From Phaeobacter italicus (GTDB lineage: Bacteria; Pseudomonadota; Alphaproteobacteria; Rhodobacterales; Rhodobacteraceae): 64,000 nt of DNA. Positions 31,119-34,880 of this stretch are shown here, one piece after another. Where the stretch lies: contig NZ_CVRM01000011.1 in the NCBI RefSeq assembly GCF_001258055.1, positions 186,001-250,000 of the forward strand. The letters are read 5' to 3'. The notes beneath the pieces were generated by a model. The model was not told the origin of the DNA. It worked only from the letters and a program-made list of their open reading frames with translations, and searched no databases. Every line of letters begins with the position of its first letter. The first letter of the stretch is position 1. The translations under genes and the position numbers were made by a program.

Positions 31119-31641
31119 ATCCGGTCTCCTGCCTGGGTCGGGGTGCCCGATCTGTCGCGCAATTGGCCCCGATCTATCGCCCAATTGACACTGCGGGGCA
31201 AGTGGCTCTGCTGGTGTGCCGCGGACCGGACTGGCGGACCAGACGTGGACCAGACTGGCGGGCGGACCAAACAGGCGGCGCCGAATCGATCCCCTCAACA
31301 CGCGGCGCTGACACCCAGCGTTTTGCATTGCTGACAGGACAGGAAGGCACCGGCAGGCGCCCCTTTGTGCTGGTGCGGCTGTGGATGGTTCTGTGGGCAA
31401 GCTGTGATCAACCTGTATGCAGCCGGGGTTTTGACGGCTGCGGGGCACTTTAGCAAAAGAAGCTGCACCATCAGCGCAGCATAAAATAACCCGGCTCGTA
31501 CGGTTCTGGCTTGTGGGGCGCCCGCGGCAACTCAACCTTGAAGGGAGCAGGGCCATTCGCAGATCATCTGTCGGCTCCGCTTGCGGTGACGGGCTGCCTG
31601 TTGCTCTTGGCCGCATCACTCTGTTCTGGGGGAGACCAAAA
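31119..31641. other. Divergent intergenic region with direct repeat
   Basis: About 520 bases between xth (minus) and the peptide gene (plus). It contains an interlaced direct repeat at 31223-31272 (GGACCGGACTGGCGG and GGACCAGACTGGCGG, 24 bases apart, with further GGACCA-AC units). Near 31432 there is TTGACG with no good -10 at the right spacing. No other gene is seen; the promoter of the peptide unit should lie here. Confidence 0.5.
31223..31272. repeat. Short interlaced direct repeat
   Basis: GGACC(G/A)GACTGGCGG occurs at 31223-31237 and 31247-31261, with GGACCAGAC and GGACCAAAC units at about 31236 and 31264. Could be repeated binding sites or slippage-derived sequence; no family is recognised. 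Confidence 0.5.
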
Positions 31642-31872
31642 ATGAAACCACAACAAACCGCTGCCACACTACCCGCCCTCTCTTCGCGAGGGGCAGGCGC
31701 CTCATTGTTGACGGGCGCCGCCACTGGCCTGTTTTCGTCCGGCTCAGACAGGGCAGATACAGCCCTGCATCAGGGCGGGGGAACGGGGCTGTTTTCATCA
31801 GGGTCCGCACCCGCCGACGATCAGGCCGCCCTGACAGGGGACGCCAGCGGTCTCTTTTCGTCGGGGAGCTGA
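31642..31872 (+). CDS. 76-residue peptide with three GLFSSGS repeats
   Basis: Start ATG at 31642 with GGGGGAG eight bases upstream. The heptad GLFSSGS occurs at residues 29-35, 49-55 and 70-76, the last forming the exact C-terminus. Spacers are about 13 residues, Ala/Asp/Gly-rich. The three copies use different codons (GGC CTG TTT TCG TCC; GGG CTG TTT TCA TCA; GGT CTC TTT TCG TCG), so the conservation is at protein level. There is no signal peptide or membrane segment. The first 28 residues could be a leader. The layout resembles multi-core modified-peptide precursors or short repeated docking motifs. It is followed 31 bases later by a 417-residue protein of unknown function. The family is not recognised. 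Confidence 0.65.
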   Translation: MKPQQTAATLPALSSRGAGASLLTGAATGLFSSGSDRADTALHQGGGTGLFSSGSAPADDQAALTGDASGLFSSGS

Positions 31873-31903
31873 TCCATCAGGCGCAAGTGCGGCGTTTTCT
31901 GAC

Positions 31904-33157
31904 ATGGCGACCATTCTGACCTTTCCAAAGCGCCCTGAGCGGCAGGACACAGATGCGGCCCTCGACGCAGGTCCTGCACACGTGGGGCACCCCCTCACTC
32001 GCAAAGGTCAGAGCAGCGCGCCCTGGGCCCCCTTGGTGGAAAGCATGGCACGCCACCGCCGGGATGAGCTGGAGGTCGGTTGGCTCAAGGAAAACGCCGA
32101 GCTGTTGGGGATCCTCAACAGCACCGGGCACAGCAGATGCGACGGGGGAGAGGCAGCCCTCGCGCATCTGCGGCCCTTCGTTGAAACCGCCCCCCGCCGC
32201 CTGCAATTTTTCCCGCAATACTATCGTTTCATCCTGTCGATCTGTCTGGATTACGAGGATCTGACAGGCGGCGCGACCGACACGGGCAGCCAACTGGCGC
32301 ATTGGATCGCGACGCGCGGGCTGGTCTGTGGTGAACTGTCCGATCTGCAGCGCGCCGAAGCGCAGCACCTGCTGGCGCGCCGGGCTGTGCTGCTGCCGGA
32401 TCCGGGTGGGAAACATGCAGGCCTGCGCAGCCGTCTTCGCCGCTTTGCGAGCGATACGGCAGGCTTTGCCATCCCCGACCGTCGCCGCGCCTATGAGCTG
32501 ACCCATGTGGTGTTTTACCTGACAGACTATGGCCGCAGATGCGCCGCGCTGCCTGAAACGGCGACACAAAGCCTGATCCATGTGGGGCTCTGGGCCTATC
32601 TCGACTGTGACTGGGATCTGGTGGCAGAGGTCTGCATAGCCTTGCGCTATCTCGACCAGCCCCCACCGCCGCTATGGGAGGCGGCATTGCAGCGCAGCCT
32701 TGGGGCGTATCGCCTGCTCGCAACGCCGGTTGTGGGGGCGGATGACTACCACGCGTTTTTCGTAGGCCACTGGTGGCGCGCTGTGGCGGCACGGGGACAG
32801 GCCGGGCAAGGCGCGTTTGCCGACCTGACGGGGTGGCGCGGCGGCCCGCTGAGCGTGCGCGCCTCTCAAGCGACGGGCTTGCTGGCACCGTTGTCCCTGT
32901 GGCTCTTGCAGGGGGGATCTGCCCGCGTGGACGACGCCATTGCGCATATCACCACCACGATGGGACAGACCGCCGCCGCCCATCTGGCCGAAACAAAACA
33001 CAGCAGCGATCACTTCGCCCGCTTCTGGCATCATTTCTGCAGGCAGGGCGAGGCCACGGCCAAGGCGCATGTCATAACGGCCCAGGGGCAAAAACATCTG
33101 CATGATGAAAAACCGCGCCGTTCAATGCAGAAGGGCCACCCAAAGGGCAGCCCATAG
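31904..33157 (+). CDS. Conserved hypothetical protein linked to GLFSSGS peptide
   Basis: A 417-residue, probably cytosolic, largely helical protein. The N-terminus (first 45 residues) is variable; the core includes RLQFFPQYYRFILSICLDYE (about residues 97-116), RAYELTHVVFYLTDYGRRCA (about 194-213) and FFVGHWWRAVAARG (about 285-298). Conserved-looking His, Cys and Trp residues occur, and the C-terminus is basic with HHFCRQGEA. None of the known peptide-modifying enzyme signatures (radical SAM CxxxCxxC, YcaO, LanM, ATP-grasp) is seen. It starts 31 bases after the peptide gene without a clear ribosome site, so translation may depend on the upstream gene. I do not recognise a function. Confidence 0.75.
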   Translation: MATILTFPKRPERQDTDAALDAGPAHVGHPLTRKGQSSAPWAPLVESMARHRRDELEVGWLKENAELLGILNSTGHSRCDGGEAALAHLRPFVETAPRRLQFFPQYYRFILSICLDYEDLTGGATDTGSQLAHWIATRGLVCGELSDLQRAEAQHLLARRAVLLPDPGGKHAGLRSRLRRFASDTAGFAIPDRRRAYELTHVVFYLTDYGRRCAALPETATQSLIHVGLWAYLDCDWDLVAEVCIALRYLDQPPPPLWEAALQRSLGAYRLLATPVVGADDYHAFFVGHWWRAVAARGQAGQGAFADLTGWRGGPLSVRASQATGLLAPLSLWLLQGGSARVDDAIAHITTTMGQTAAAHLAETKHSSDHFARFWHHFCRQGEATAKAHVITAQGQKHLHDEKPRRSMQKGHPKGSP

Positions 33158-34783: not shown

Positions 34784-34807
34784 TCGCTGGGGTGCGTCCG
34801 GGTCGCA

Positions 34808-34880
34808 CGGGGCAGGGCAAGACAGGACGGGACGGGACAGGGCGGGACAGCACAGGATATGGCAGGACAGGGCCGGGCCG
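34808..34880. repeat. Degenerate GGGACRGG low-complexity tract
   Basis: A run of GGGACGGGACAGGG-like units (period about five to six) fills the gap after dgt. It looks like slippage-derived simple sequence; it contains no ORF with coding character. Confidence 0.55.

Follow-up and report, generated by a model that had tools for sequence, protein, structure and literature searches.

Why should a peptide of 76 residues that spells out the same seven-residue word three times be encoded immediately ahead of a 417-residue protein in Phaeobacter italicus, and do the two act together? A preliminary description of this DNA, made from its letters, had proposed that the two genes are coupled, with the peptide serving either as a multi-core precursor or as a carrier of docking motifs.

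The gene pair in the window

In the window, by which we mean the whole 64,000-nucleotide stretch of DNA analysed, the heptad GLFSSGS recurs at a spacing of 20 and then 21 residues, its last copy forming the C-terminus of the peptide, which therefore ends in FSSGS, an instance of F-x-S-x-x (Table 1). The three 21-nucleotide copies differ in their synonymous codons, and the phenylalanine codon alone is identical in all of them. The larger open reading frame begins 31 nucleotides after the stop codon of the peptide, with no ribosome-binding site obvious by eye in the gap. The repeats, their spacing, the differing codons and the short gap had been reported in the preliminary description and were confirmed on the open reading frames, and the differing codons extend to the cores of related peptides.

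No family in Pfam, NCBIfam or PHROGs exceeded its cut-off for the peptides scanned, namely the window peptide with ten relatives (Pfam) or nine (NCBIfam), and two peptides for PHROGs. The best weak match, at E 1.1e-5, reached 25 bits against a cut-off of 140, and such matches were judged to reflect low complexity. The 417-residue protein had been taken for a member of no recognized family; it is in fact matched by Pfam DUF6902 (PF21843; 326.4 bits, cut-off 27, E 2.5e-97) and, over residues 51-264, by DUF6895 (PF21836; 75.1 bits, cut-off 23.8, E 7.7e-21).

Table 1. Positions of the features discussed, numbered in the window unless a related locus is named
Feature	Position	Strand	Basis or remark
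Likely ribosome-binding site of the peptide, GGGGGAG	31628..31634	+	By eye; putative
Putative repeat-core precursor peptide, 76 aa	31642..31872 (stop included)	+	Open reading frame; repeat peptides upstream of DUF6902 in relatives
Core copy 1, GLFSSGS, residues 29-35	31726..31746	+	
Core copy 2, GLFSSGS, residues 49-55	31786..31806	+	
Core copy 3, GLFSSGS, residues 70-76	31849..31869	+	C-terminal
DUF6902/DUF6895-superfamily protein, 417 aa	31904..33157	+	Predicted alpha/alpha toroid; presumed core-modifying enzyme
Codon of His201	32504..32506	+	Invariant in the DUF6902 and DUF6895 alignment (11 sequences); further basis, the 38-sequence alignment
Asp238 to Glu242 (D-x-x-x-E)	32615..32629	+	Both invariant in the superfamily alignment
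Tyr282-His283	32747..32752	+	Tyr invariant; His in 10 of 11 superfamily sequences
DUF6895 genes behind small peptide ORFs	L186:6446-7741, L187:5952-7868, L188:6200-7963, L191:3721-4851		
EamA-type genes after DUF6902 (examples)	L001:7050-8033, L038:2075-2953, L042:7044-7967		

Recurrence of the pair and of its repeat unit

Of the 395 genomes sampled from the family, 111 contain DUF6902. We searched the same genomes with a profile derived from 14 peptides, to which some of the 395 had themselves contributed; it matched 101 genomes, comprising 100 of the 111 with DUF6902 and one of the 284 without it; the single match in the latter group (G213) is marginal (E 5.1e-4). Among the 11 DUF6902 genomes missed by the profile, seven have peptides with other cores (G070, G123, G283, G319, G351, G380, G401), three lack a peptide at the locus (G068, G288, G399) and one (G159) has a gene fragment.

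A similar picture emerged from individual loci. Of 149 distinct loci, three (L028, L046, L059) were set aside for a contig edge too near or a late start of the profile match. By inspection, the open reading frame just upstream of DUF6902 contains a shared core two or more times in 143 of the 146 others, about a dozen loci with a wrong automatic choice of reading frame having been read by eye before this count. The exceptions are L156, L174 and L175, the last two being weak DUF6902 relatives; they may represent decaying genes or proteins with another substrate. An exact five-residue word occurs at least three times in the upstream reading frame at 119 of the 146 DUF6902 loci versus none of 203 control anchors drawn from the same set of loci, and at least twice at 140 versus 17. 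We rely on this exact test and on the genome profile, as a looser one (six-residue words with two mismatches) discriminated poorly, finding at least three copies in 131 of 134 peptides versus 70 of 300 control reading frames.

The partner is thus rarely found alone, and the proposed coupling of the two genes is well supported by this near-perfect co-occurrence together with the fixed gene order described below. The pair is a widespread cassette. A low-complexity repeat arising by chance, in non-coding DNA or an unrelated reading frame, could in principle yield such words, given that some five-residue word appeared three times in 9 of 20,000 shuffles of the 76-residue peptide (the real repeat is seven residues long). 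This reading is refuted by the comparison across loci, where repeats lie in the same place with different codons and different cores, and we attach practically no weight to it.

The distribution of the cassette is patchy: DUF6902 went unmatched in G001, a genome from the window's own genus that is 92% complete. The cassette is also present in two assemblies labelled Granulosicoccaceae, a gammaproteobacterial family (L042 and L043), with a core that reads GCY; this suggests old or horizontal spread. No match to the partner was found in plasmid records.

To define what the peptides share, we compared their repeats. The unit is G-x5-F-x-[S/T]-x-x, repeated about every 20 residues, and its fuller form in 114 F-type peptides, a set selected in part on F and on the S/T at +2, is G-[D/E]-[A/G]-[V/T]-[E/x]-[M/L/A]-F-x-[S/T]-x-x. 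That set is restricted to peptides having three or more F-type units and excludes seven loci with doubtful picks as well as loci with masked sequence; the window peptide was put back by its coordinates. Each of the 114 carries 3 to 20 copies, spaced mostly 20 or 21 residues apart; G at -6 from F is the consensus in 113, and 77 end exactly with their last core, so that the C-terminus reads F-x-[S/T]-x-x-COOH. When peptides were instead picked by G-x5-F alone, regardless of +2 (118 of 134), S or T still made up 95% of residues at that position. Proline stands at +6 in 556 of the 692 units that have a residue there.

The remaining core positions follow a different pattern. Within a peptide of the 114-member set, copies agree at +1, +3 and +4 from F at 0.91, 0.86 and 0.88, whereas agreement of the consensus between peptides is 0.33, 0.35 and 0.49. 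The linker from -7 to -10 agrees at 0.24-0.33 within a peptide and 0.1-0.3 between peptides. Where copies carry the same residue at a core position after F, the codon is also the same in a fraction of 0.43-0.54 of cases. From the column agreement and the codon sharing together, it follows that the cores of one peptide are kept alike at the protein level, and that they differ between species. This would be RiPP-like behavior, in which the core appears to behave like a product.

The preliminary description had treated the heptad itself as the conserved element, which does not hold, as its first glycine is lost within the genus (ELFSSGS, SLFSSGS, AMFSSGS). Across the peptides compared the core letters vary (FSSGS, FTSGL, FTSWS, FTTSC, MMTSV, GCYT) and the flanking G-[DE] frame is kept. 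The two refuting conditions set in the preliminary description did not overturn its proposal, given that the partner seldom lacks the peptide and that a repeated core is found again in relatives. The letters of that core are not fixed; judged on the sequences compared, what is conserved is an F-x-[S/T]-x-x core that varies from species to species.

Distances between cores and between DUF6902 proteins are correlated at r 0.64 before correction, as against 0.43 for cores and the neighboring Dgt and Xth proteins. The covariation of core and DUF6902 beyond these neighbors has a partial r of 0.53, reached in none of 2000 permutations over 29 of the first 46 loci, with the caveat that shared ancestry can inflate Mantel tests of this kind. 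Alignments A1 and A4 cover 37 and 30 of those 46 loci, respectively. Since core distance tracks DUF6902 distance after the neighbors are corrected for, the partner most likely reads the core.

Reading of the core could also amount to docking, in which a disordered peptide, as scaffold or ligand, would recruit several copies of a DUF6902 protein that binds and has no enzymatic role. Uniform cores and covariation with the partner are expected under docking as well, and the wide range of copy number in the F-type set favors it. However, if a conserved protein reads a motif, the motif would be expected to stay conserved too, and here it is the core that varies and the frame that is kept. The docking alternative of the preliminary description is weakened by this pattern, and we consider it unlikely.

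Relatives and predicted fold of the DUF6902 protein

The preliminary description had also seen no signature of a known peptide-modifying enzyme at the locus. This needs amending, as DUF6895 has a member that the title of a paper names as a lasso-peptide epimerase (Shi et al., ACS Catal. 2026, 10.1021/acscatal.5c08590, cited in PMC13352647). The partner resembles that family in exceeding the PF21836 cut-off and in having His, Asp, Glu and Tyr positions in common with DUF6895 members; it differs in belonging to the DUF6902 branch and in its presumed substrate, a linear multi-core repeat peptide rather than a lasso precursor. A lasso-peptide reading of the window's own pair is disfavored, with no match in its genome to the leader protease family Transglut_core3 (PF13471).

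When seven DUF6902 proteins are aligned with four from DUF6895, H201, F204, G210, D238, E242 and Y282 are invariant and H283 is present in 10 of 11 sequences. The conserved set of His, Asp, Glu and Tyr would fit acid/base catalysis. LanC-like cyclases are alpha/alpha toroids with Cys, Cys and His as zinc ligands. The partner family differs from them in that no column of the 38-sequence alignment that is invariant, or nearly so, holds Cys.

AlphaFold2 gave a mean pLDDT of 85 for the whole partner and 91.7 for residues 38-400. The nearest solved folds found with VIA-align are alpha/alpha toroids, including class II terpene cyclases, the protein farnesyltransferase beta subunit, C3d, transcobalamin and GlcNAc 2-epimerase, with a best Z of 11.8, a range in which the tool warns that a match can mean a mere common helical arrangement. 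No peptide epimerase is among the 50 VIA-align matches listed. Foldseek gave no match at E 0.001 or less in the PDB and viral models. Given this result and the range of the Z scores, we claim the general architecture alone, that of a predicted alpha/alpha toroid. Two sequence searches of solved structures yielded no credible match, one returning three dynein light chains at E 0.8-1.2 and the other nothing, and the Pfam and NCBIfam scans recognized no cofactor-binding family in the partner.

On the docking alternative, the properties of the partner point both ways. C3d and transcobalamin are non-catalytic members of this architecture, consistent with a protein that only binds; on the other side stand a superfamily relative reported, in a title, as a peptide epimerase and several invariant polar residues that could be catalytic.

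MslH has a metallophosphatase-type fold. PMC10406935 describes it as the metal-dependent epimerase of the lasso peptide MS-271, acting on one C-terminal Trp and encoded in the same gene cluster as the ribosomal peptide that it epimerizes. The present pair likewise places a ribosomal peptide beside its presumed enzyme; unlike MslH, which depends on metal and acts on a single C-terminal residue, the partner is predicted to be an all-helical toroid and would face repeated cores.

We opened six further loci found with DUF6895, one of which (L190) proved to hold a DUF6902-type gene. A small peptide reading frame lies upstream of the DUF6895 gene in four of the five DUF6895-type loci (L186, L187, L188, L191), and the DUF6895 match was confirmed for all four; the fifth, L189, has a weak DUF6895 match and no clear upstream peptide. 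Three of the four show duplication, either as two leader-core repeats per peptide (L187, L188) or as two paralogous peptide genes (L186), and L191 has a single peptide reading frame. The presumed cores are aromatic, of the GPWFVL, GPWYIY and WTF-NYVY (WTFIS-NYVYKG) types. L186 also has genes for an MFS transporter, an O-methyltransferase and a papain-like protease, a set that looks like a biosynthetic cluster. By their gene content, the DUF6895 loci resemble additional examples of a peptide system made up of two genes.

Proposed maturation and genomic setting

We put at roughly 0.55 the probability that the locus is a minimal RiPP-like cassette, with a multi-core precursor and a toroid enzyme, in which the core would be modified, most likely by epimerization, and then cleaved and exported. 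The precursor would consist of a short N-terminal leader followed by tandem units of about 20 residues, each made up of G-[D/E]-x-[V/T]-x-[M/L/A] and a core F-x-[S/T]-x-x. The DUF6902 protein would bind each unit and modify its core, the likeliest reaction being epimerization of a core residue by acid/base chemistry through His201, Asp238, Glu242 and Tyr282-His283. A general protease would then free the cores, and the short product would exit the cell, in most loci examined through an EamA-type transporter encoded next. That the partner modifies the peptide is probable; release of short cores seems about an even bet; and epimerization, which we infer from family membership and the title of one paper, is a tentative assignment that falls a little short of even odds. 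The idea of a multi-core precursor, put forward in the preliminary description, is well supported by the co-occurrence, by the RiPP-like behavior of the core and by the frequent adjacent EamA gene. Weighing against the cassette reading, the epimerase relative belongs to a different branch of the superfamily and, by its title, acts on lasso peptides, and the pair is fixed among housekeeping genes, unlike many natural-product clusters. The three loci that have no peptide, the peptide-free DUF6895-type locus L189 and the G001 genome without DUF6902 count against it as well.

The same cassette might perform another reaction, such as a crosslink, a lactone or ester, a dehydration or some other change to Ser/Thr or Phe. 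The prevalence of S or T at +2 could point to side-chain chemistry and toroid folds serve many chemistries, but the partner has no recognized cofactor-binding family and epimerization is the sole superfamily activity that we found reported, again by title. We regard a different reaction as rather doubtful.

The C-terminal F-x-S-x-x recalls the FxSxx-COOH peptides, which with FxsB form three-residue cyclophanes. A radical-SAM system of this type, with its enzyme encoded elsewhere in the genome, would account for the many F-type peptides that end in this motif, and the window's genome has 14 radical-SAM matches, counted as matches alone. However, no SPASM-domain match is present there, the FxsB model reaches 20.5 bits against a cut-off of 370, and SPASM matches occur in 11 of 24 pair-bearing genomes tested. 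We judge a cyclophane system very improbable.

For the epimerized-core cassette, the closest parallels in precursor design are the multi-core precursors of fungal dikaritins, cyanobactins and the yeast alpha-factor, each with several near-identical short cores that are uniform within a precursor and different between species. They differ from the present system in their partners, the one described here being a bacterial cassette with a toroid protein, and we know of no sequence relation between them and these peptides. RiPP logic is known; within the open-licence PMC literature, which lacks most subscription papers, we came across no account of the precursor family, of the DUF6902 branch or of the repeat architecture, and no occurrence of the DUF6902 name or of five core motifs as letters. 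DUF6895 is mentioned there by one paper, among its references.

A more far-reaching proposal, possible although on balance unlikely, is that these loci encode a class of multi-core ribosomal peptides not described before, widespread in Rhodobacteraceae and located between xth and erpA-dgt-argS, in which the toroid enzyme would invert one residue of each F-x-[S/T]-x-x core. Many copies of a clade-specific, protease-resistant D-residue peptide would then be made and exported, maybe as a signal, much as yeast obtains several pheromone copies from one precursor. If the cassette reading is correct, over a quarter of the genomes sampled from the family would encode short modified peptides for which we found no description, DUF6902, a Pfam domain of unknown function, would gain a substrate, and peptide epimerases would be widened beyond the radical-SAM and lasso examples, with an enzyme that tolerates repeats becoming available for the production of D-residue peptides. 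Core sequences follow directly from the genes, which makes products searchable by mass, and their uniformity within and variability between species pose a clear evolutionary question.

An EamA-type transporter gene lies directly 3' of DUF6902 in 59 of the 84 loci with at least 900 nucleotides downstream; the profile used derives from three loci that are themselves among those counted. Linked export genes are common in RiPP loci, though not universal. In 17 of the 77 loci where the match reaches the start of the EamA gene, that gene overlaps the stop codon of DUF6902 by four nucleotides, and partial EamA matches were found in 40 of 65 loci with shorter downstream sequence. A transporter gene that so often follows is a further point against docking. 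The EamA gene is absent beside the pair in the window and in the five other pair-bearing members of the genus, and EamA-like genes elsewhere in their genomes are, among the matches listed, at most 31% identical to the cassette EamA. No protease or leader-recognition gene was recognized at the DUF6902 loci; this and the missing transporter gene beside the window's pair also weigh against the cassette reading.

Of the 46 loci in the first scan, 39 have Xth upstream and on the other strand, and ErpA, Dgt and ArgS are encoded downstream in 44, 44 and 38, respectively; wherever found, all four have the order and orientation seen in the window. Given this fixed order of neighboring genes, the pair is inherited in place for the most part. 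Short imperfect tandem repeats are also present in the window before the peptide gene (31146-31187 and 31221-31261) and after dgt (34807-34857).
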